Source of the DNA: Candidatus Bathycorpusculum grumuli
Lineage (GTDB): Archaea > Thermoproteota > Bathyarchaeia > Bathyarchaeales > Bathycorpusculaceae
Length of the DNA stretch: 34,297 bases
Assembly (NCBI GenBank): GCA_009776805.1
Contig: WRNB01000012.1
Coordinates: 1-34,297 of the forward strand
Reading direction: 5' to 3'
The notes under the pieces are model-generated. The model searched no databases and was not told where the DNA came from. It saw nothing but the letters and a program-made list of their open reading frames with translations. Both the position numbers and the translations under genes were made by a program. The stretch's first letter is position 1, and each line of letters begins with the position of its first letter. Positions 2,774 through 34,297 of the stretch are shown piece after piece.

Positions 2774-3205
2774 TTGTTGTAACAACTTGTACGTAACATA
2801 TAGCCTTTTTGCCAAATTCACCCGTAAAGAACAAAACGTTTTCGACACAAAATAACTAAACCACCAACCTACACATACATAACCAAACATAACACAACAT
2901 AAATCAAATCACCATTTAGACCTTAACCTAACCCACAATTCAAACATAGATTTTTCGATACAACCAACAAAAACAATAAACACCAACCACCACTACAAAA
3001 AACAACACACCACACAAAAAAATTGTATACATTCAACTATGTGAAAAAAGAGTTTCTTTGCACATTTTAAATCGAACAATAAAAATTTACGTTATTTCCG
3101 TTCAACAAACACAACAACACACACATGTTCATGCACGTATATTCATACGAGCCAAACACATACAAAAATTTTAACAAACTAGAACACTGTAGAGATAAAA
3201 AATGA
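2774..3205. other. Intergenic stretch, A/C-rich on the + strand
   Basis: No gene is supported here. From about 2880 to 3030 the + strand is dominated by A and C, one of the strand-biased blocks that recur across the window. The segment must contain the promoter of the anchored-protein gene, but I cannot pick a clear TATA box. Confidence 0.5.
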
Positions 3206-4211: not shown

Positions 4212-7013
4212 TCATGGTTTGATTTGTTGTTTGATTGTGGCTTCAACTGTTTTAATGGCTTCTTGTAGTTTATTTGGCAATGTTCCCCCGCCTTGTGCAA
4301 AATTTGGTTTTCCACCTCCACCTCCGCCTATGATAGGGGCAGATTGTTTGATGATTTGTCCCGCGTGAATACCTTTTGCTGTTGCGCAGTCACCTGCCAT
4401 TATCATGATTCGCACTGTTTTTCCGTCTGTTCCGTAGAAAACCACAACTGTTGCAGAATTTTGTTTGATGATTTCACTACCGGTGGCTACCATACGATCA
4501 ACATCAATAACATCACCAAAGTCGCGTTTAACGATGTATACACCGTTAATTTCTTGAGCAACATCCTGTGTTTGTGCTGTTTGACTTTCCTTTTCTGATA
4601 ATTCCTTAATTAAACGTCGTTTGTCTTGCTGAACATTTTTGAAGTCTTTCATGACTTTTTCAACAGTTTTGTCAAGTTTTTCAACTGGTGCACCAATAAT
4701 AGCTGCGACATTCCAAAGCAATATTTCTTGTTTCTGAATTTCTTTAAGTGCCTGAAGTTCAACTGCATAACCTAAACGTTCTACACCATCTTGAACACGT
4801 TCAGTATAAATAATTTTTATTAAACCAACTTCAATTGTGCTTTTAAGATGAGTTCCTGCACAAGCTTCAACATCCCAATCACCAGTTTTAACAACTCGAA
4901 TATCTTTACCTGGAACTGCACCGCCCTGGTAGAGTCTAAACCCGTAACGTGCTTCTGCCTCGTTTCTAGAATACCAAGCTATATCGATTTTTATGTTTGC
5001 CATAATTGCTTGATTTGCTAAAAGTTCAATTTGGTGAATTTCTTCAGGTGTTAAACGTTTATAATGAGAAATATCAAGACGAGAAGTTTCAAGACCTTTC
5101 TGTGCACCTGACTGCCAGACATGATTACCTAGAACACGACGTGCTGCACCATTAACAAGATGTGTTACAGTGTGAGCTTTCATCAAATTATAACGTTTAT
5201 CCCAATTCAAAGAACCTTTAAGGGTTATTCCTTCTTTAAAAGGCGCATTTGCATTAATTTTGTGTACTATAACTTTGTTAATTTTTTGTGTATCTACTAC
5301 TGCAACCATAACACCGTTAAAGTTTAACCAACCTTCATCTGCAGGTTGACCACCACCTTCAGGATAGAAACAAGTTCGATCCAAGATCACATATTTTTCA
5401 TTAACTATTTTGATGACTTTTGCTTCAAATTCTTTCATGTAAGCATCAACATAGTATAGCGGCTCTGTTGGTGGCAATTGTTCTGCAACTTCTTTGAGAG
5501 TTTTTTCTACTTGAATTTGCGCTTCTTCAACAGGTTTATTGGCATTCATATGTCGATTAGCTATAAGAGAATAAAAATTTTCAGGCACATCAACCTGTAT
5601 ACCTTCTTTTTCAGCTACCTGTTTAACAATTTCAGGAGGTAAACCATGTGAGTCATAAAGTTCAGTTAAAGTTGTTTCAGGCAATTTACCAGTGTCTTTT
5701 GTTTTAAGGTCATCAGCTATACGTTTAATCATGCCCTCGCCACGTTTAAGAGTATCTTGGAATTTTTCTTCTTCATTTTTAAGCATTTCAATAATTTCAG
5801 TTTGCATTGTCTTAATCTGTGGAAAATCTTTTGACCAATAGTTAGCTTGTAACTCTATTATATCATATAAACTGTCAATATTAATATTCAAATTTAACAT
5901 TAAACGGTAGGTACGACGGAAAAGCAATCTGGCTAAATACCCTTCTTGAATGTTTGAAGGTACAACACCTTCACTTAACATGAAACTAAGAGTTTTTGTA
6001 TGATCCATTATGGCCCAAGCATTTTCAACTGGAATAAGTTTTTGCTCCAATGTTTTAAGACTAATATCAGTTAGTTGAGAAACACGTTTTCGCAGTACCA
6101 TACGATTTGCAGTTTTATCCACGTTGACAAGACCAGAATATTTTGCAACCTGGGAAAGAAAATCATTATCAACATTAGTTATACCTGCCAAGTCATAAAT
6201 TTTGTTTAGCATATTACCATAGATTGCTTGGAAACAACTTGGTACACCTTGACTTATCCATGTAAAACGATCAATACCGTAGCCTGTATCAACTGTGCGT
6301 ATGGGTAATTCAACAAAGTCATCACCAACCATTTTATACTGCATAAATACAAGGGTACCAACTTCTAAACCGCGCAGTATGCATTCAACATCTGGACCTG
6401 CATTACCGCCGCCAATCCATACACCTTCTTTGTAGACAACTTCTTCACTTTTTATACCTAAAACTTCGGTTACAAAACGGTGATGGAAACGAACAGTGTC
6501 ATCTTTCCAATAGACTTCTTTATCGGGCAGATTAAATGCATGAGCACCACCCATCTCAAAAATGGTTAAATGCCTACCAAATGTTGGTCCAGTATTAGGG
6601 ATATCAGTTAATCGTATACTTGGTTGTGAAATAACTAATGGATTTGCAGGAGGTGGAGAAATGCCTTCGGTTACGTATGGTTGGAAATCAATGATGCTTG
6701 CATGTGTTAGGTAAATGTCGCTTCTCCATCGAGCTACTACAGGGTAAGGTTTGATGCGTGTGTGATTGTTATGTTCGAAAAATGAAAGAAAAGCTTCACG
6801 CATTTCAGGTAGAGTATAACGTTTTGTTGTTGCTGGGTTTCCGATGAACGAGTAATGCCCACATTCGACAGAACTTGATTCTCCACAGGTTTCCATATGT
6901 GGATCTTGTGTCCAAAAATAGTCACCGCATTTTGGACAATGTTTACGTATAAAACCTTCCTGTTTAAAGAATGGTAATTCGTATGCTTCTGCTGGAAAGC
7001 GTTTCTCAACCAT
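4212..7013 (-). CDS. alaS: Alanyl-tRNA synthetase (archaeal type)
   Basis: Charges tRNA-Ala with alanine in the cytoplasm. At 933 aa it has the archaeal domain order. An N-terminal extension carries Cys motifs (CPKCGDYFW and a following C/H pair). The class II catalytic core follows (RPYVTEGI-type region, FEMGGAHAFN, PDVECILRG). Next come the editing domain with zinc ligands HTVTH and CAGTH, and the C-terminal C-Ala domain ending in the glycine-rich GGGGGGKPNFAQGGG motif. I moved the start to ATG 7013: an AGAGGT sequence sits about 6-8 bases upstream, whereas the longer frame to 7031 has no such signal and would add only MHRGNF. Divergent from the small membrane-protein gene at 7189. No key motif appears to be missing. 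Confidence 0.97.
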   Translation of the reverse strand: MVEKRFPAEAYELPFFKQEGFIRKHCPKCGDYFWTQDPHMETCGESSSVECGHYSFIGNPATTKRYTLPEMREAFLSFFEHNNHTRIKPYPVVARWRSDIYLTHASIIDFQPYVTEGISPPPANPLVISQPSIRLTDIPNTGPTFGRHLTIFEMGGAHAFNLPDKEVYWKDDTVRFHHRFVTEVLGIKSEEVVYKEGVWIGGGNAGPDVECILRGLEVGTLVFMQYKMVGDDFVELPIRTVDTGYGIDRFTWISQGVPSCFQAIYGNMLNKIYDLAGITNVDNDFLSQVAKYSGLVNVDKTANRMVLRKRVSQLTDISLKTLEQKLIPVENAWAIMDHTKTLSFMLSEGVVPSNIQEGYLARLLFRRTYRLMLNLNINIDSLYDIIELQANYWSKDFPQIKTMQTEIIEMLKNEEEKFQDTLKRGEGMIKRIADDLKTKDTGKLPETTLTELYDSHGLPPEIVKQVAEKEGIQVDVPENFYSLIANRHMNANKPVEEAQIQVEKTLKEVAEQLPPTEPLYYVDAYMKEFEAKVIKIVNEKYVILDRTCFYPEGGGQPADEGWLNFNGVMVAVVDTQKINKVIVHKINANAPFKEGITLKGSLNWDKRYNLMKAHTVTHLVNGAARRVLGNHVWQSGAQKGLETSRLDISHYKRLTPEEIHQIELLANQAIMANIKIDIAWYSRNEAEARYGFRLYQGGAVPGKDIRVVKTGDWDVEACAGTHLKSTIEVGLIKIIYTERVQDGVERLGYAVELQALKEIQKQEILLWNVAAIIGAPVEKLDKTVEKVMKDFKNVQQDKRRLIKELSEKESQTAQTQDVAQEINGVYIVKRDFGDVIDVDRMVATGSEIIKQNSATVVVFYGTDGKTVRIMIMAGDCATAKGIHAGQIIKQSAPIIGGGGGGKPNFAQGGGTLPNKLQEAIKTVEATIKQQIKP

Positions 7014-7188
7014 AAAGTTACCTCTGTGCAATGTAAATTAAAGTTACTTGGAGAAGGATGATTTTCACAGATTTAAAGTATATCCTATAGTACATTTGCT
7101 TGATGCTCAAATTTACTATTTTGATTATTATTTTATAGTATTAAACGGGTAGATAAATTTTTATGGTCCCGTGTTGTAGACATTAAGT

Positions 7189-7733: not shown

Positions 7734-7760
7734 TGAGTTTTTCATTTTTTGTACTATAAA
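7734..7760 (+). repeat. Left terminal inverted repeat of the IS1634-type element
   Basis: Reads TGAGTTTTTCATTTTTTGTA then CTATAAA. It is the inverted partner of 9653-9679 with two mismatches. The decayed transposase frame ends inside it, at the TAG complement at 7754-7756. Confidence 0.8.
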
Positions 7761-9524
7761 CCCTGCGAAACAACTTTCTTCAAAGACCGCCCCCGCCTAC
7801 GCACAACCTCCGACCCTAAACCAAAAACACACCCACCCGGAACCTCAAAACCAAATACCCCACACACAACCAACTACAACCCAACAAACAACAAAACCAC
7901 CCCACCAAACCCCACACACTCAATAAACCAAACCAACCGCATCCCATCCAAAACCACCAAACAAGAACAAAACAAACCACACAAACACGAACACAACCAC
8001 ACAAAACACAAATACAAACCCAACACCAAAAACACAAACAAAACAAACAACAAACCCACCTCCCCACCCTCAAACCAAACCCACTACCTACCAAACCCCA
8101 ACAGAACCCCCATCTAACCAAAACACTTCACCTACACATCACACAACCCATACACCTCCAAAACCCGCAACACACCAAACCCAACACCAAAAAACAAAAA
8201 AACAAAAAACCCAACAAACACACACACCCCATCAACCCGCCTCAAATCAACCCCAAACAACACAACCACCCCAAACAAATCACAAACCACCCTAAAAAAA
8301 CAAAACACACACCTAACAAACACCTCATCACCCAAAACACACCCATCTTCACCAACTCCAAAAGAGCCTCACGCTGAACAGCAACCATAATATCCAACTC
8401 TAAAAGAGCCGCACTACAACACATCGGATCAAAATACAAATTCAACATTAACCCAACAAACTTTTTACCAAAACACCCCTCAACTTCATAACTAACATCA
8501 TACTACCTATAATAAAGCCTAGTTTTTGCATCCACACTCATCCCCTCTAGACAATTACTAAAAGAACCCAACCCTTTGATAATTTGAGCAACTTCTCTTT
8601 GAACAGTTTTCACACACATAATAAACGACTGCTCCCTAAGGATGAATTCGTTTAGATTGTGCAACGAGTCGTATCCACGATCAGTGATATATATGGCGTT
8701 TTTAAAGCCTGCGTGATTTAATACTGTAAGAATAGTTTGTAGGCTTTTAACGTCGGGCATGTTGCCTGGGAAGGTTTGGTAGAATATGGGCATGTGGCTG
8801 GTTAGGGAGTAGACTACGACTTCTGTGGTTTGTGGGAGGGAGGTGGTTGTTTTTGTTTTTGCCCCATCGGATGTCTGCTAGGCAGTTTCCGTAGGCGGAT
8901 CGGGTGGTGGAGTCGATTGCGCAGAGTTCTTCTTTGCCGTGGTGTTGGGCGTGGAGTTTTAAGAAGTCTATTTTGTGTTGTTTTGTTATGGTTTGGGTGA
9001 GTCTTGTTATGGTTGTGGGGGTTAGTTCTTTTGTTGAGGGTGTTTTTACGTTTTTTTGCCATCTTGATTTTGTTGTAGGTGTTTTTTGTTATGTGGGGGT
9101 ATATGGTGAGTGTTAGGATGTTGTTTACTGTGGTTTGGTTTTGGTTAAAGATGGTTAGTAGGTTTTGTTTTAGTTTTGTTTTTTGGGTGATTTGTTCGAG
9201 GAGTCATATGCCTTTGTAGAGTTTGTTTTGGTATTTGGTGTCGCATGTGGTGTTTGTTGTTTGGTTTGTTGTTTTTGTGATTTGGGTTAGGTTCCAGTCT
9301 TTTGGGAGTATGAGTTTGTTGCGTTATTGTGGTGGGGTTAGGTGGTAGGTTTTGTTTGGGGTGAATTTTTTGTTTTGGTCGATTGTTCGTCAGTGTTTGT
9401 ATTTGTAGGTTTTTTTGTTTGTTTTTGGGTTGGTGTGGGGTGGTTGGGTGCTGGTGTATGTGTATTTGTTGTTGTGGTGGGGTTTTATTGTGTATTGTGT
9501 GTTTGGGTTTGTTGGTCGTGTCAT
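7754..9524 (-). pseudogene. Transposase pseudogene, IS1634-type DDE family
   Basis: Reading the minus strand across several frames recovers one continuous transposase. An N-terminal part begins at ATG 9524 (MTRPTNPNTQ...), followed by LPKDWNLTQI, YKGI-LLEQI and AIDSTTRSAYGN (first catalytic Asp at 8912-8914). Then come EVVVYSLTSHMP, TFPGNMPDVKSL, ITDRGYDSL (second Asp at 8680-8682), VDAKTRLYYR, LNLYFDPMCCSAALLELD and VQREALLEL. The C-terminal part is badly decayed. In-frame stops include TAG at 8503-8505 and TGA codons near 9203 and 9395, and at least one frameshift lies near 8830-8850. Length (about 590 codons if intact) fits the family. The 5' half uses codons ending in C or A, the 3' half codons ending in T or G. 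Not functional. Confidence 0.85.
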
Positions 9525-9652
9525 TGGGGTTTTTTTCTTTGTTTTGTTTATTGTGTATTTATAGTATAAATGTACTGTAAATATTTTTTGGTTGTGGGGG
9601 GTGTTTTGGGTGTATTTTTGAGTTTTGTTTGTTTTTGGTAGGTTATTTTGAA

Positions 9653-9679
9653 TTCATAGTACAAAAAATGTAAAACTCA
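9653..9679 (-). repeat. Right terminal inverted repeat of the IS1634-type element
   Basis: The complement reads TGAGTTTTACATTTTTTGTA then CTATGAA and matches the left end at 25 of 27 positions. It lies 47 bp from the stop of the adjacent surface-protein gene. Confidence 0.8.
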
Positions 9680-10487: not shown

Positions 10488-10540
10488 ACTAAAAAACTTT
10501 TCTACCCATGGGTTTTTGTGTCTTTGCCCAAAATAATTTC

Positions 10541-11760
10541 ACCCCTAAGACTGTCCGAAAACTAGCACATTTTAACAACAAAACAACCACACACCACCAC
10601 AAAACCCAAAACACCAACAAAAACATAAAAACAAAACAAACACAAAACACATTCAAATACATCAAACACAATAAAACAAAACACAAAACTCACAACAGAA
10701 ACAAAAAACATGCCACACACAACACTACAAAACAAACACCAAACAACACCAACACCACACAAAAAAAACACTACATAACAAAAGAAAAACCAACAAAACT
10801 AATAAACACATACACAAACACCCCAAACCTACAAAAACTAGACCCAACAAAAACCACACCAAAAACAAAAAAACAACCAACATACCCACCACAACCACTA
10901 CCAAAACCACACACATACAACATCACAACAAAACACGACCCAACAAAAAACCAGCAAAAAACCCCAAAATAATATGACTATACCAAAACCAACACCCAAA
11001 CCTCAAAACAATAACAGACCAAAAAAAAGACAACCCAAAAACACTAAAACAAACAACCTACAATAAAACCTCTTCTGCAACAACCCAAAACCTCTTCAAA
11101 AAAAGAATACGAAACACAAAACGACGCCAAACTAAAGCCGACAACACCAAACACCAAAACACTACCCTAACAAAACTAGACGACCACATAAAACACATAG
11201 ACAACAACATCAAACAACACATCACCAAACCTAGAAAAAATGATACAGAAAAAACAAACAAACACAAATTCACCAAAAAAGAAATCAAACAAAAAAATAG
11301 CCACACACACCCAAAGAAAAACAAAATACGAAAAATACCAAAAAGAACAAAAACAAATGGTGAAACACAAAAATCATTAACAAACCACAGAAGCCAAACT
11401 AATGAAATTCAAAGACAGCTTTAACATTGGATACAACGTCCAAACAACCGGTAGACTCCAAACACCACCTAATAGCAACATACGCAGTTACAAATCATCC
11501 TTCTGATCATGGTTTGATTGCACCTGTGATTGGGGAGGTGAAAAAGGTTTTTAATTTGGATATTTTAGAAGCTACCCTCGATAAATGATATCGTGACAAA
11601 CAAGATATGATTGATTGTTTGGAGCAGGGTATTGTGCCCAATGTTCCACCCACTAAAAAATTAATTGATGTAATTTATTAGCCCAAAAAAGCCCTTGATA
11701 TTCAAAAACCATCTTATACCAAATTTACCCATAAATTTGATCAAAAACATTATACTTTTC
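10541..11760 (+). mobile_element. Decayed insertion sequence, IS1182-type (partial)
   Basis: The left end is placed at AGACTGTCCGAAAACTAGCA (10548-10567), which resembles the sequence complementary to 25153-25169. From there to about 11480 the + strand is nearly all A and C (111 of 120 at 10741-10860 by hand count). It then becomes T/G-leaning while the same transposase reading continues. I could not find a matching right terminal repeat, so the right end is lost or unrecognisable and the boundary given is approximate. Confidence 0.6.
11385..11681 (+). pseudogene. Transposase fragment, IS1182-type DDE family
   Basis: Two joined frames give the central catalytic region of an IS1182-type transposase. 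First, TEAKLMKFKDSFNIGYNVQ (11385 to about 11450). Then, after a frameshift, from 11451 come VDSKHHLIATYAVTNHPSDH, GLIAPVIGEVKKVF, LEATLDK, a TGA at 11586-11588 where the family has a glycine of DKGY, YRDKQDMIDCLEQGIVPNVP, and a TAG at 11679-11681. Upstream, lysine- and threonine-rich frames with ADN..KLDDHIKHID fit the less conserved N-terminal part. The C-terminal zinc-binding region is not recognisable. At least one frameshift and two stops make it non-functional. Confidence 0.72.
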
Positions 11761-11948: not shown

Positions 11949-13292
11949 CTAAGGTGAGTGCCAATCATGAATAAGTACAGCTGACACATTTTGTTTTTCC
12001 TGTCCAAACCGTCTTAAGGGCTTAGTCAAATGACGTTGTGAACGAACTGAAGATATATATAAACCTACTTTAAGTGTTCGCGGACTAACAATCCCTTGTT
12101 TTTTAAGATGTAAAAATTTTTCACCACATTTTTTACATCGAAACCCTTGATGTTTTCCCATAGATTTTAAACTCTTTTTACAAACAGGACATAAAGGATT
12201 TTGTTGCACCACCTTTTGATTAAGTGATATGACACGAATTTTTTCGAGATTTATAGTTAAGGGTTTAGATTTTGTTGCCTTATGTACAGCACCCACAACT
12301 TCCACGTGATCACCAATTACAAGCTCACGTGCAATTTTACGCAAAATCCCTGTAGGTTCATACGCGGCACAATCTACTTCACCAGAAAAGTCTTTAATAC
12401 TAAAAATCACATGCCGTACAGGTACAATCTGAGGATTTTTTGAAACAATCCCCTTCAGAATCACAGAACTACAATGCTCCAATTCATCCACAGAATTAAC
12501 ATGTCTCAAATGTGCGTCAGTACCCTGATTTGACCTAAAAATTACCCAACGCTCCACAGTCTCCAAAGATTTAACAAGTTCAAAAGCTTGCTTGACCACA
12601 TTTGCTGACTCACCTCTAATACCAAACAAAATAGGGTCTGTTCCGTGAGGAGTTATTATAACACGTTTTTTTTCAAAATCCACATTGTTAAAAACTTTTG
12701 GCTGTAACAGCTTATCCATATTAAAAATTGATTCTTTATCAACAAGCCGTTTGGTACCCCAGTTAACTGGTGTACGATAAGCAATTAACTCGTAAGTATA
12801 ATCACCAGTCAAAGTTTCACCTATAGCAGATAGAGCACCAATTATGCCACGACATGTGTTGTAACCTAACGCTTCTGCACCAACCTTACAAACCAGTTTA
12901 ACGGCTTCTTTTATAGTAACTATACTGGTTTCTGCACGACGAGAAAAAGCGGTTAACTCTTGTGGAATAGTTTCATTCTGATAAAATACAAGACCCGGGT
13001 TAGTTCCTTTTTTATCCACCTGTGAATACTGTTCCCAAAGATTCAAAATTAACTGTTTAATATAACCAACTAATTGTGATGGACAGCGAAAACGTAAACA
13101 GAGTGCACCATTTCCTCGAGTTTTCCAAGATACATTTGGATTAAGCCGTATCAATACGGGATAATCAATGAATTGCACATCAGATATTTGTGTGAGTTTG
13201 TCTATCAAAACTGCAGCAAGATATGTAGTGCAACCACCTTCGATTGAATCGGTATCGTCTAAACCAATATGTAACGTGGAAGTATTAGTCAA
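11949..13292 (-). CDS. tiaS: tRNA(Ile2) 2-agmatinylcytidine synthetase TiaS
   Basis: TiaS attaches agmatine to C34 of tRNA-Ile2 so that it reads AUA as isoleucine. The protein has the family N-terminus IGLDDTDSIEGGCTTYLAA, the conserved YNTCRGIIGALSAIGE region, an IAYR segment in the middle, an OB-fold part (about residues 270-350, near VILKGIVSKNP and FSGEVDCAAYEPTGILRK) and a C-terminal zinc ribbon (CPVC...CKKCGEKF). Full length at about 447 aa. The open frame begins at GTG 13310, but I prefer TTG 13292, which has GGAG eight bases upstream and gives a family-like N-terminus. The gene stands alone with A/C-rich + strand composition. It implies that a tRNA-Ile2 with a CAU anticodon exists elsewhere in the genome. 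Confidence 0.95.
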   Translation of the reverse strand: MTNTSTLHIGLDDTDSIEGGCTTYLAAVLIDKLTQISDVQFIDYPVLIRLNPNVSWKTRGNGALCLRFRCPSQLVGYIKQLILNLWEQYSQVDKKGTNPGLVFYQNETIPQELTAFSRRAETSIVTIKEAVKLVCKVGAEALGYNTCRGIIGALSAIGETLTGDYTYELIAYRTPVNWGTKRLVDKESIFNMDKLLQPKVFNNVDFEKKRVIITPHGTDPILFGIRGESANVVKQAFELVKSLETVERWVIFRSNQGTDAHLRHVNSVDELEHCSSVILKGIVSKNPQIVPVRHVIFSIKDFSGEVDCAAYEPTGILRKIARELVIGDHVEVVGAVHKATKSKPLTINLEKIRVISLNQKVVQQNPLCPVCKKSLKSMGKHQGFRCKKCGEKFLHLKKQGIVSPRTLKVGLYISSVRSQRHLTKPLRRFGQEKQNVSAVLIHDWHSP

Positions 13293-13310
13293 ACACCCAA
13301 CTCCAAACAC

Positions 13311-13686
13311 TTTACAGTAGTATCATAATAAAAAAGGTTGTTTTAACACTGCAAGAAACGCTTATATTCAGTTGTATACTAGAACCAAAATCAAATCAAA
13401 CAAAAATTTTGCACCCCCTTGTAAATAACTTTTCATAAAAGAGTTCACCATCAACTATGCTGATGATGGAAGAAACCAAAAACAGACAAATACTTTCATG
13501 TAAAAACTAATAATATAAACAAAGAAAAAATCATAATCGATCTCCGAAAACCTGTATTTTTTAAAAATTACTTGCTAAAAACCGTTTAGCTATGTTGCTT
13601 GTTTTTCTGAAATAGTGTTTTTGGCGGTTGCGCATAAAAAGAAAACAAAAAAACTTTACTATCACCAAGCATATGAATAACACTAT
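13311..13686. other. Intergenic stretch, no gene seen
   Basis: A 376-bp A-rich spacer between co-directional genes. A TGATGATGG sequence near 13460 resembles a box C motif, but no D box follows at the right distance, so I do not call an sRNA. No open frame is convincing. Confidence 0.45.
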
Positions 13687-24689: not shown

Positions 24690-25170
24690 ATTATTGTCTA
24701 TGATATCTGTTATGATGGGTTGTTTGTGTTTTTTAATTTTTTCCATCGTTTACCTCTTTGTTTTGAGGCTGTGGTGGTGTTTACGTTTTGAGAGTTAAAG
24801 GGTAGTTTGGTTGTGGTTTTTTGGTGTTTTGGCGGGTTTTTTGTATTTAGGGTTGTTTAGTTTTTTTCATAGTTTGTTTTGTATGGTTCTTGTGTAGAAG
24901 GTGTATATTGTTTTGTAGTTTGGTATTTTTTGGTAGTATGTGCTATTGGTAGTCTGTTTTGTTTATGTATTGTGTTGTGTTTATTAGGCCGTGTTTTTTG
25001 TGTTTTTTGTGGGAGACTACTTGAAAACTAGGTTACAAAATTTTTGTTGTTGAAAATAATTTTGAGAAATTGTGTTTTAGAACTATTTTCATGTTTTTAT
25101 TGTTGAGATATTTTGTATTATATAGTTTTTATTTTTAGTTCATAACTGCAGTTATTTTTCAGACAGTCTG
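24690..25170 (-). mobile_element. Probable insertion-sequence debris, G/T-rich on the + strand
   Basis: This gene-free block is almost all G and T on the + strand. At its right edge, 25153-25169, the complement reads AGACTGTCTGAAAAATA, which matches the left end of the IS1182-type element at 10548 (17 of 22 positions over the longer alignment). Read inward on the minus strand it is A/C-rich, as are the other IS 5' halves. Fragmentary Lys/Thr-rich frames are compatible with a decayed transposase N-terminus, but I cannot identify one firmly. Left boundary approximate. Confidence 0.35.
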
Positions 25171-28393: not shown

Positions 28394-29737
28394 ATGAGCG
28401 AGTTGGAGAATTCAGGTTACAAGGATTCAGCATTACGGTTACTTCAGGATGCTGGTTGTCAGATTGGAGATATTATCCGCATTACCAGTAAGGGTAGAAC
28501 TTATGATGGAATTTTGATTCCTCGTGCTGAGTTTGGAAATACGACAAATATAATCATAAAGATGAAAAACGGGTATAATGTTGGCATAACTGTTTTGGAG
28601 GATGTTGTAGTGGAGAAAATTGGCGTGGGTGTTAAGCCTACGTTTGCGACTTCACCGTTGCCTAAGCAGAATTCTGTTTTGCCTCATGTTATGATTATGA
28701 GTACTGGTGGCACTATTGCAAGTCGTGTTGATTATCGAACGGGAGCGGTTCGTTCGGCGATTTCTGCGAGTGATCTATATGGTGTTGTGCCTGAACTTTC
28801 AGATGTTGCTCGTGTTGATACAGAAATTGTTTTTAGCATTTATAGTGAAAATTTAACTCCTGAAAATTGGTCTTTGCTTGCCAAGAAAGTTGCTGAACAT
28901 ATTAAACATGGAATAGATGGTGTTGTGATTGCTCATGGTACAGATACTATGGGGTATACTGCGTCAGCGTTGAGTTTTGCATTACAGAATTTGCCAGTTC
29001 CAGTGATTCTTGTTGGTGCTCAACGTTCATCTGATCGTCCTAGTAGTGATGCTGCGACTAATTTAATTGGTGCAGTTAAAGCGGCTGGTGAGGCTTCTTT
29101 TGCTGAAGTTTGTTTGGCTATGCATGAGACAGTTTCTGATTCAGCTATTGCGGTGCATAGAGGTGTTAAAGTTCGTAAGTGTCATACAAGTCGTCGAGAT
29201 ACTTTCAAGTCGATTAATGGTTTTTCGATTGCTAAAGTGTTAGATCAAAAGATTATTATGCAAACCAATGATTATCAGCGTCGGGATGCTTCAAAAGAGT
29301 TGGTTTTGAAGCCGGATTTTTGTGATAAAGTAGCTCTTGTAAAGTTTTATCCGGGCATGGATCCTGCAATTATTGATTTTTATGTTAATCAAGGGTTTAG
29401 AGGTATTTTGCTTGAAGGTTCGGGTTTGGGGCATGTTAGTATGTTTTGTTTTGATTCTATTAAAAAAGCTATAGCTAAAGGGGTGATTGTAGCACTTGCA
29501 TCTCAGTGTATTTGGGGTCGGGTTAACATGAATGTTTATGATACTGGAAGGGATTTGTTGAGTTTTGGGGTTGTCCCACTTGATGATATGTTTCCTGAAA
29601 CTGGACTTGTTAAACTTATGTGGGCACTTGGACAAACTGGTGATTTTGAAGAGGCAAAAATGTTGTTGAAAACAAATATAGCAGGCGAGTTTTCGTTGTG
29701 TACTCGTTCTGAGGAAACGGTTTATGGAGCATCATAA
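28394..29737 (+). CDS. gatD: Glutamyl-tRNA(Gln) amidotransferase subunit D
   Basis: The asparaginase-like subunit that makes ammonia from glutamine or asparagine for the archaeal GatDE complex, which turns Glu-tRNA(Gln) into Gln-tRNA(Gln). The N-terminal 80 residues form the SH3-like domain of GatD. The L-asparaginase part has MSTGGTIASRVDYRTG (catalytic Thr at 104 and 107 region), VIAHGTDTMGYTASAL (H181-M186 second motif with Thr and Asp), LVGAQRSSDRPSSDAATNL and KCHTSRRDTFKS, the usual catalytic set. Full length at 447 aa. ATG 28394 follows GAGATG. Its stop TAA overlaps the region of the gatE ribosome binding site, so the two subunits are translationally coupled, as expected for a fixed-ratio complex. 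Third-codon positions are strongly T/G-biased. Confidence 0.97.
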   Translation: MSELENSGYKDSALRLLQDAGCQIGDIIRITSKGRTYDGILIPRAEFGNTTNIIIKMKNGYNVGITVLEDVVVEKIGVGVKPTFATSPLPKQNSVLPHVMIMSTGGTIASRVDYRTGAVRSAISASDLYGVVPELSDVARVDTEIVFSIYSENLTPENWSLLAKKVAEHIKHGIDGVVIAHGTDTMGYTASALSFALQNLPVPVILVGAQRSSDRPSSDAATNLIGAVKAAGEASFAEVCLAMHETVSDSAIAVHRGVKVRKCHTSRRDTFKSINGFSIAKVLDQKIIMQTNDYQRRDASKELVLKPDFCDKVALVKFYPGMDPAIIDFYVNQGFRGILLEGSGLGHVSMFCFDSIKKAIAKGVIVALASQCIWGRVNMNVYDTGRDLLSFGVVPLDDMFPETGLVKLMWALGQTGDFEEAKMLLKTNIAGEFSLCTRSEETVYGAS

Positions 29738-29738
29738 A

Positions 29739-31634
29739 ATGTCAACTGTTGATTATGCTAAAATTGGTTTAAAGGTTGGTTTGGAGATTCATCAACAGCT
29801 TAATGTTGGTTCGAAATTGTTTTGCAGTTGTCAGCCTGAGTTGTTTAAGGAAGATCCTGAGATAACTTTTTTGCGTCGTCTTCGTCCAACGCAGAGTGAG
29901 TTGGGACAAGTTGATCCTTCGGCGTTTTTTGAGTTTCAAAAGGGTGTAAGAATTCTTTATGAAGCGAACCGTAAAAGTGCTTGTCTTGTTGAAATGGATG
30001 AGGAGCCACCTCATTTGTTGAATATGGATGCAGTTAAAGTTGTTCTTACAGCGGCACTTATGATGAATATGCAACCTGTTGATGAGGTGCATGTTATGCG
30101 TAAAACTGTTATTGATGGTTCGAACACGACTGGTTTTCAGCGTACAAGTATTATTGCTTTGGGTGGTTGGATAAAAGTTGGTGAAAAAGTTATTGATATG
30201 CAGGCTGTGAGTTTGGAGGAAGATGCTGCACGGAAGATAGGTGTGGAAGATGATGCAAAGATTGTTCGTTATCGTGTTGATCGTCTTGGTATTCCGTTGA
30301 TTGAGGTTACTACTGCTCCTGTGATTTATTCGCCACTTGAGGCACAACAGGTTGCTTTAGTAATTGGACGGATTTTGCGTGATACTGGTAAGGTTATGAG
30401 GGGTCTTGGGGTTATTCGTCAAGATCTTAATGTATCAATTACCGACGGTGCTTTAATTGAGATTAAAGGTGTGCAAGAACTTGAATTGATTTCGACTGTT
30501 ATTGATTATGAGGTGCAACGTCAGTTGGAGTTACTTTGCGTGAAAAGTGAATTATGTAAACGTGGTGTAACTAGAGAAGAGTTAAAGACTGATTTTGTTG
30601 ATGTAACAGATATATTTAGAGAAACTAAAGCAAAGGTTATTCGAAAAGCCATTGATAAAAACCATAGAGTTTTAGCGGTTAAACTTGTTGGATTTGCGGG
30701 GCTTTTGGGCAGGGAGTTGATGCCTAATTTTCGTGTGGGTTCAGAGTTATCGGATCGCGCCAAGTTTTGGGGTAGAGTTGGAGGGATATTTCATACTGAT
30801 GAGATGCCTAATTATGGCATAAGTATTGAAGAAGTTGCTGCTGTATGTAGAGTAGTAGATGCGGTTAATGGTGATGGAGTTGTGTTTGTTGCTGACACAG
30901 TAGAGAATACGCGTGATGCACTTAAAGCAGTGGTGGATCGTGCGCAAGAATTTTTTGTTGGTGTGCCTGCTGAAACTCGAACAGTTAAAGATGATGGTAC
31001 AACACGTTATATGCGTCCGCGACCAGGTGCGGCTAGAATGTATCCTGAAACAGACATTCCTGCACAGTCCATAACAGCTGATTTGGTAAAAGAAGTCTTG
31101 GTTAACATGCCGGAATCTGCTGAAAAAAAGTTTACACGTTTAATGAAACAATACACGTTAAATGAAAAGTTGGCAAAACAAATCATTGATTCGGAATATG
31201 CTGTATTGTTTGAAGAAATAGTTAAAGGCACAAATGTTACAGCGTCTATTGTTGCAGTTTTTCTAACAGAAACTATAAAATCTCTTAAACGTGACGGTAT
31301 AATAGTTGAAAACGTTAATGAAGTTCAAATTAAAACCTTGTTTGGCACTATTGGTTCAGGCATACTTGCTAAAGAAGCAGTTGTAGAAATTTTCAGTTGG
31401 CTTGCAAAAAATGAAGGTAAAACTGTTCAAAATGCAATAGACACTTTAGGTTTAAAAATGTTCACAGAAGCTGATTTGGAACTTGTTATTAACCGTATAA
31501 TCACCATTAACAAGGCTGTAATTGAAAAAAATGGTAAAAACGTGTTTGGTATGTTAATGGGTGCAGTAATGAAAGAAGTACGTGGTAAAGCCACTCCGGA
31601 ATTGGTTAGTAAAATTTTAAAACAAAAACTCTAA
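29739..31634 (+). CDS. gatE: Glutamyl-tRNA(Gln) amidotransferase subunit E
   Basis: The GatB-related subunit of archaeal GatDE that binds tRNA, activates the glutamyl group with ATP and performs amidation. Seen: GLKVGLEIHQQLNVGSKLFC with the conserved RRLRPTQSELGQVD, EMDEEPPHLLN, VHVMRKTVIDGSNTTGFQRT, LEEDAARKI, RLGIPLIEVTTAP, RDTGKVMRGLGVIRQDLNVS, an AspRS-like GAD insertion (about residues 270-400), and a helical YqeY-like C-terminus. Standard length for GatE (about 631 aa). I chose ATG 29739, nine bases after GGAG located inside the end of gatD; ATG 29724 is also in frame. GatDE is found only in archaea and implies that this organism lacks a direct glutaminyl-tRNA synthetase. Codon third positions drift from T/G-rich to A-rich along the gene. 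Confidence 0.97.
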   Translation: MSTVDYAKIGLKVGLEIHQQLNVGSKLFCSCQPELFKEDPEITFLRRLRPTQSELGQVDPSAFFEFQKGVRILYEANRKSACLVEMDEEPPHLLNMDAVKVVLTAALMMNMQPVDEVHVMRKTVIDGSNTTGFQRTSIIALGGWIKVGEKVIDMQAVSLEEDAARKIGVEDDAKIVRYRVDRLGIPLIEVTTAPVIYSPLEAQQVALVIGRILRDTGKVMRGLGVIRQDLNVSITDGALIEIKGVQELELISTVIDYEVQRQLELLCVKSELCKRGVTREELKTDFVDVTDIFRETKAKVIRKAIDKNHRVLAVKLVGFAGLLGRELMPNFRVGSELSDRAKFWGRVGGIFHTDEMPNYGISIEEVAAVCRVVDAVNGDGVVFVADTVENTRDALKAVVDRAQEFFVGVPAETRTVKDDGTTRYMRPRPGAARMYPETDIPAQSITADLVKEVLVNMPESAEKKFTRLMKQYTLNEKLAKQIIDSEYAVLFEEIVKGTNVTASIVAVFLTETIKSLKRDGIIVENVNEVQIKTLFGTIGSGILAKEAVVEIFSWLAKNEGKTVQNAIDTLGLKMFTEADLELVINRIITINKAVIEKNGKNVFGMLMGAVMKEVRGKATPELVSKILKQKL

Positions 31635-33463: not shown

Positions 33464-33888
33464 CAATATTGGTTTTAATTATTTGGACCATTCTTATGTT
33501 AAACACATACACACTAAATAACACAAAAAACTAAAACCAAAAACACAAACACCAACAAAATACACACCCACACCACCAAACACAAATAATAACTAGGATC
33601 TAACCAAAAAGGTTATTACTACTATCACTTAACATTTAAAACTTTACAAAAATACAGGATACAACCACCTACTACCTTACCCTTACAACCTCAACAACAA
33701 AATACCAACACACCACACACATATAAATTATGACACAATTCCCCACAACAAAAACACCACTCAAACACTCAACACCAAAAATACACCCACCAACACATCA
33801 ACCAACTAAAACACCAATAACAAACCCTACAACACTCAGAACCGGTATACAATAAAGTAACAATTGCACCACAAAACCCATAAAACAC
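33464..33888. other. A/C-rich spacer, no gene
   Basis: The + strand is dominated by A and C, with few G. The only structure seen is a short AACC...GGTT hairpin near 33602-33615. The block probably includes the decayed left part of the IS5-type element that follows; its exact left end is not visible. Confidence 0.5.
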
Positions 33889-34297
33889 AACACAACAACA
33901 CATGGATAATAAAAATAGGATACCCAACAGGATCTAACAAACACACAATGGAAACTAATCAAAAAAAACTTTCAAAACAAACAAAGACAATCACCTACAA
34001 AAACACAACAAAAAAACCATGTAAACGCCATACTATACCGCAACAAAACAGAATGCCAACGAAGACTATTACCAAACGATTTCCCAAATTATACCACAGT
34101 TGGGTCATTTTACAAAAGAGCCATAAAAAAGGCATCTGGGAAAAAGCAATGAACAAAATAGTCCAAAAAGTACACATTGACACAGAACGCACACAAAAAC
34201 CAAGCTATTACCCGATAAATTCACAAAGCACAAAAAACAACAAACACAAACAAAAAACGCGACATCGATGAGGAAAAAATCAAGGACTACAAAAAAC
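33889..34297 (+). pseudogene. Decayed IS5-type transposase, N-terminal part, cut by window edge
   Basis: Frames joined by shifts give the IS5-type (DUF4096) N-terminal domain: GYPT, then [44 protein letters not shown] (from 34021), and after a shift near 34130 [32 protein letters not shown] (the SQS of the usual IDSQSVKT, with Asn for the catalytic Asp), then a TGA at 34269-34271 near the RGYDGGKK-like region. There are at least two shifts, one stop and a lost catalytic Asp, so it is dead. The coding strand is A/C-rich, as in the 5' halves of the other IS genes. The 3' half lies beyond the window. Confidence 0.7.

Follow-up and report, generated by a model that had tools for sequence, protein, structure and literature searches.

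Mirror-symmetric, strand-specific mutation of living transposons in the archaeal genus Candidatus Bathycorpusculum

The DNA analyzed here, referred to as the window, is a stretch of 34,297 nucleotides which corresponds to contig C12 of a 2.29-Mb Bathyarchaeia MAG (G000) of the genus Candidatus Bathycorpusculum. An IS1634-type element of 1,946 bp lies at positions 7734–9679. As an earlier note on this DNA had proposed, it is bounded by 27-nt inverted repeats, at 7734–7760 (plus strand) and 9653–9679 (minus strand), which are 93% complementary to each other. The copies of the element on contigs C28 and C91 of the same genome have the same end, with no mismatch to the end sequence used as query. 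The family assignment was obtained with an intact relative in genome G004, for which the NCBIfam model NF033559 gives 163 bits (cut-off 100) and which is 60% identical over the middle piece of the window element. No direct repeat flanking positions 7734 and 9679 was found that could represent a target-site duplication, as is expected for an old copy. The neighboring genes at 4212–7031, 11949–13310, and 28394–31634 have ordinary housekeeping functions in archaea (alanyl-tRNA synthetase, TiaS, GatD, GatE).

The transposase gene is only present as remnants on the minus strand (7760–9278), interrupted by TAG, TAA, and TGA stops, and the pieces (8347–8865, 7760–8341, 8831–9115, and 8964–9278) match residues 6–515 of the intact G004 protein. 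The window copy is thus dead. A single short piece in the center, 8503–8793 on the minus strand, is still open and matches DDE_Tnp_1 (PF01609). It does cross the compositional switch described below, so that of the continuous transposase reading reported before only this part stands, the remainder being broken by stops.

The base composition of the element is highly unusual. In 200-bp bins the A+C fraction of the plus strand is 0.92, 0.93, and 0.88 at 7801–8400, passes through 0.68 and 0.43 at 8401–8800 and drops to 0.26, 0.15, 0.16, and 0.12 at 8801–9600. The A/C-saturated half extends over 7751–8425 (0.89 A+C over the tract) and the G/T-saturated half over 8926–9660 (0.15 A+C over the tract), and they are separated by a center of nearly balanced composition (8426–8925). 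A maximum-likelihood change-point and the crossing of 0.5 both place the switch 1,038–1,040 bp from the right end, at about position 8642; the midpoint of the element is at 973 bp. A switch near the midpoint, as reported earlier, is therefore correct. From left to right the GC skew rises from about −0.9 to +0.84; the AT skew starts at about +0.8 and ends at −0.7. The GC content stays at 0.35–0.49 throughout, and we therefore regard the pattern as a strand flip, in which the purines of one strand have mostly become A and its pyrimidines C. The flanks do not take part in the pattern: to the right the A+C fraction is back at 0.44–0.49 from position 9601 on, and the left flank is G-poor only in part. 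The left terminal repeat is likewise free of the bias and still T-rich. Equally extreme tracts did not occur in 20 × 100 kb of shuffled sequence of this genome.

The two halves are mirror images with respect to the 3′-ended strands, as the earlier note had recognized. In the left half the 3′-ended strand is the minus strand, in the right half it is the plus strand, and in each half it is this strand which is depleted of C and A. To obtain the direction of the changes we compared the left half with a truncated, less mutated copy on contig C28 (L002), whose C-terminal transposase frame is open. On the minus strand 35 of 54 C have changed to T in the window copy (65%), and of 72 A, 18 have changed to G (25%) and 12 to T (17%). 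Reverse changes are nearly missing (no T>C and 2 G>A at 246 sites). These changes fall on codon positions 1, 2, and 3 in 31, 43, and 14 cases, the third position having been near saturation beforehand. For the right half we used the intact G004 relative (L022) and found on the plus strand C>T at 21 of 43 and A>G at 9 of 48 sites, with T>C at 8 of 164 and G>A at 5 of 149 sites; these figures are approximate, as L022 is distant and itself flipped. The alignment proposed earlier as a check, namely for C-to-T and A-to-G changes on the 3′-ended strand, thus gives the right direction in both halves. Since the substitutions are one-directional and mostly affect codon positions 1 and 2, they reflect directional mutation and not codon preference, and this dead copy leads us to reject selection on codons. 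No clear neighbor preference was seen at the C>T changes or at the changed A residues, with small numbers in both cases, and hence nothing resembling a deaminase motif. Another copy, L003 on contig C91, has most derived changes in common with the window copy, transversions included. Therefore their common progenitor must have carried mutations before the copies sat at their separate sites.

The earlier note had put forward, as a hypothesis, that single strands left in an excised or broken element had been deaminated, and had stated that an intact copy with the same pattern would mean an ancestral bias instead. Such intact copies exist. We describe them by AC3, the A/C fraction at codon third positions, and by d, the AC3 of the first half of a gene minus that of the second half. 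In the intact 517-aa transposase of G004 the AC3 by gene eighths is 0.89, 0.94, 0.83, 0.38, 0.26, 0.19, 0.05, and 0.37. Along the coding strand of intact transposases of the genus AC3 falls from 0.8–1.0 to 0.0–0.1, and more than 10 further transposases of the genus run at 0.95–1.00 and then at 0.00–0.10; ordinary neighboring genes are flat. For the ordinary genes of the window's own genome d has a mean of 0.009 with an SD of 0.12. Within the genus the DDE transposases (n = 29) have a median d of 0.54, IS110 (n = 18) one of 0.31, and the rve types (n = 14) one of 0.20, and no value is below −0.2. The flip occurs in IS1634 (NF033559), IS5 (NF033581), IS110 (NF033542), and an IS481-like group which scores under the cut-off of its family model.

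In DDE transposases of sister genera of the same family the median d is −0.14 (n = 12, none above 0.4) and none of the 12 flips. One IS1634-type family could be followed across classes: it is flipped at 9 of 9 loci in Bathyarchaeia and at none of 6 loci in Thermoplasmata, where the sequences are 45–47% identical and AC3 is flat at 0.35–0.60. The pattern depends on the host lineage and not on the IS family. Where relatives of the genus transposons come with a name, it is that of a Candidatus Bathycorpusculum species or of another member of the Bathyarchaeia. Damage confined to excised, broken, or dead copies is thus not borne out, given the intact transposases, and the alternative attached to it fails as well: the flat members in Thermoplasmata rule out a codon bias inherited with the IS family, and the pattern is specific for the host lineage, is found in several unrelated IS families and is strictly directional. 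As it is present in intact elements, directional and bound to a lineage, the process must hit living elements repeatedly. All evidence is drawn from assembled MAGs; an assembly artefact is unlikely, as MAGs of different projects share the pattern.

There are exceptions inside and outside the genus. Three open DDE transposase frames within the genus are flat (L199 on contig C74 of G000, L197, and L214) and are perhaps recent arrivals. Six loci in genera elsewhere in the family or order (L187, L190, L191, L193, L194, and L196) show the reverse trend, with AC3 rising from 0.06–0.34 at the 5′ side to 0.63–0.85 at the 3′ side. IS200 elements are mobile as a single strand. For IS200/IS605 the median d is 0.13–0.15 (seven TnpA and two TnpB, several of them from weakly affected genomes). 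In the two IS200-type TnpA genes L079 and L090 the second half alone is G/T-rich and the first half is not A/C-rich.

For seven elements the ends are defined; in these the switch lies at 0.48–0.56 of the length from repeat to repeat, the terminal repeats are spared and the flanks are unaffected. The affected strand is always the one whose 3′ terminus coincides with the closer end of the transposon. A reference to the ends and a reference to the gene are not fully separable, because in every family examined the transposase gene takes up nearly the whole element. The large nonautonomous elements that were candidates for separating the two turned out to be dead IS or mosaics. We favor the ends, because the dead copy has changed at all codon positions and because short noncoding elements have a bias of the same sign. 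The latter form a repeat-bounded family of about 100 bp with 10 copies in the 640 kb surveyed, among them window position about 13539–13640, C7:3990, C7:32292, C8:2969, C8:18506, C11:10843, and C1:67847. They carry ACCTCCGAAAA ends similar to those of the IS5-type element in L198/L201, and their consensus has an A+C fraction of 0.72 on the left and 0.32 on the right. The support from this family is weak, as such elements may be palindromic by descent, and the divergence between its copies is only mildly biased.

Compositional strand bias is not restricted to transposons in this genome. In the own-genome surveys, made on stretches summing to 640 kb of the 2.29 Mb, noncoding A/C or G/T tracts occur at 15.7 per 100 kb and make up 4.75% of the sequence. 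Genome G024 has 10 tracts per 100 kb. In samples of 18–80 kb from other genomes of the genus the density was between 0 and 1.2 per 100 kb. Within contigs of the own genome tracts share their polarity above chance (174 pairs of same polarity versus 130.9 ± 7.7 expected, p ≤ 0.0005), as would be expected of replication direction. The tracts may reflect the same mutator in another form, but they leave the reversal in the middle of the elements unexplained. In the window, saturated noncoding tracts without an obvious IS are located at 10521–11425, 24706–25020, 33641–34020, and 2861–3020. The open reading frame at 10508–10972 is an artefact of the absence of stops.

We also looked at repair genes in the genus. 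Endonuclease V acts on deaminated adenine (PMC8438529). Its gene (EndoV, PF04493) is intact in 12 of 32 genomes of the genus, and the rest lack it or have a broken version; it was not found in G000, and in G012 it lies in three pieces with stops. Elements in genomes with EndoV have a median d of 0.23 (n = 21) and those in genomes lacking it 0.47 (n = 46; Mann–Whitney p = 8e-5), and the genome means of d differ as well (p = 0.015). Both the adenine and the cytosine axis differ between the two groups of genomes (p from 1e-6 to 2e-4). UDG (PF03167) is present in 28 of the 32 genomes and was not found in G000, G022, G044, and G045. Single absences of EndoV or UDG could be due to incompleteness of the MAGs. 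The loss of UDG as a general cause is rejected, the gene missing in four genomes only, and a loss of NucS mismatch repair is excluded with NucS being present in 30 of 32 genomes. The genus comprises two separate termite-gut lineages in addition to species from soil and digesters (PMC10684969). In a NucS protein tree of 30 genomes of the genus there are two separate clades lacking EndoV which fit these two termite-gut lineages, and the window's own genome belongs to one of them.

The geometry, the direction of change, the occurrence in intact elements, the dependence on the host lineage and the involvement of several IS families are observed. We infer from them a link to transposition with a single-stranded intermediate, and propose that in Bathycorpusculum transposons undergo recurrent, directional, and strand-specific mutation which is set by their two ends, the strands becoming exposed in connection with transposition; we assign this reading a probability of roughly 0.55. 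During excision or insertion the 5′-ended strands would be resected or displaced from both ends inward and the 3′-ended strands would be left as single-stranded template. Alternatively, strand-displacing synthesis could start from the gaps present after insertion and proceed into the element from either side, in which case the same strand would serve as template. The exposed 3′-ended strand would be deaminated and then copied, or it would be copied inaccurately. On this strand C would change to T and A to G, less often A to T, and the opposite strand would turn A/C-rich. The two inward zones would join near the middle, giving the flip from A/C to G/T, and changes would accumulate with each round of transposition. 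As long as the element is alive, selection would preserve the terminal repeats and the transposase protein; the bias would therefore appear at synonymous sites in living copies and everywhere in dead ones. Against this reading counts that IS110 flips too, though it is no classical terminal-repeat cut-and-paste element.

Deamination is a possible but unproven chemistry. Deamination of C and A on the exposed strand would have the same outcome as insertion errors in the new strand, with A placed against C, C against A, or A against A. A low-fidelity polymerase or unbalanced nucleotides could introduce these very errors during the inward fill-in of the 5′ strand, with no deamination at all. This is rather unlikely but has to be taken seriously: the C and A axes shift together between genomes, A>T is frequent (12/72), the substitutions are without sequence context and UDG is retained in most genomes, including most of the strongly affected ones. 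It fits poorly with strong flips accompanying the loss of EndoV, which is an enzyme for deaminated adenine. That this loss of deaminated-base repair, mainly of endonuclease V, itself causes the strong bias of the termite lineages appears doubtful to us. The larger d of elements without EndoV argues for it, as do the genomes with EndoV sampled for chromosomal tracts, which are nearly free of them. The effect predicted is, however, specific for A, and the C axis has risen at least as much, so that EndoV loss as the sole cause is unsupported. In addition G019 has EndoV and yet a d of 0.51, G018 and G022 lack it and yet have a d near 0, and there are only four phylogenetically independent contrasts, about one of them informative. 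Loss of EndoV may amplify the bias or may be no more than a marker of the lineages concerned.

The remaining explanations dispense with the transposon ends or with transposition. A process tied to the transposase gene, such as transcription or an RNA-directed system, would account for the flip always running from A/C to G/T on the coding strand, and the gene is about as long as the element. We consider it quite improbable, as transcription exposes one strand over the whole gene, which does not account for a reversal in its middle; moreover, the changes in the dead copy are not concentrated at the third codon position and noncoding elements share their sign. A host defence that mutates recognized repeated DNA, similar in purpose to repeat-induced point mutation (RIP) of fungi, would agree with mobile repeats alone being affected while ordinary genes and flanks are spared, but intact transposases mean that nothing is silenced and the mirror-like strand switch is foreign to RIP, which makes such a defence very unlikely. 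Ordinary strand asymmetry of chromosomal replication is hardly credible. The common polarity of the noncoding tracts speaks for it, but fork direction cannot flip in the middle of the element at every site, the right half of the window element is opposite to the A/C tracts on both sides, and in G012 the elements are saturated whereas the one 20-kb chunk sampled is free of tracts.

Among known systems, the single-switch clusters at bidirectionally resected breaks appear closest to recurrent mutation from the two transposon ends. In yeast and cancer such APOBEC clusters contain mutated C only on the left and mutated G only on the right of a double-strand break (PMC6786661). In both systems the 3′-ended strand is hit on each side with one switch, which in the APOBEC case is explained by 5′-to-3′ resection. 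There, however, the switch is at the break and the clusters have a tCw motif, whereas here the switch lies between the transposon ends, no motif is seen, both C and A change and saturation is reached in living elements. Replication-linked strand asymmetry gives a G/T-rich leading strand. It resembles our pattern in the C>T and A>G changes on one strand, but the scale here is one element of 1–2 kb with a reversal in its middle and exempt flanks. In fungi the only change made by RIP is C to T, and the copies are inactivated; it is likewise heavy, directional, and confined to repeated mobile DNA. With frequent A>G and A>T changes, switching strands, and intact transposases our pattern does not agree with RIP. 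Diversity-generating retroelements (DGRs) mutate template adenines at one target, and although they too are a directional and strand-specific prokaryotic hypermutation, here the base most often changed is C and whole transposons are the targets. In the literature searched, which did not extend to subscription papers, we found no earlier report of a mirror pattern in transposons, and transposons do not come up in the papers on Bathyarchaeia genomes that were searched. The findings point to a so far unreported mutation process proceeding inward from transposon ends.

The pattern is real, unusual, and wider than the single element in which it was noticed: it is a mirror-symmetric mutation of living transposons in a whole archaeal lineage, for which the geometry is strong and the link to transposition is the part that we infer. 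Stretches consisting of A/C or G/T only, together with the spurious open reading frames within them, are, most likely, to be read as real sequence in these MAGs rather than as assembly errors. The pattern would be a natural, saturating record of the fate of both transposon strands during movement, kept by several unrelated IS families at once. Tentatively, and with somewhat less confidence than an even bet, we suggest that transposition in these archaea may itself be mutagenic and that the codon usage of every transposon family of the lineage may record the rounds of transposition it has undergone, as a molecular odometer with its mirror axis in the middle of the element. The pattern would also demonstrate that a transposon can be heavily mutated by its own movement and yet keep its transposase.
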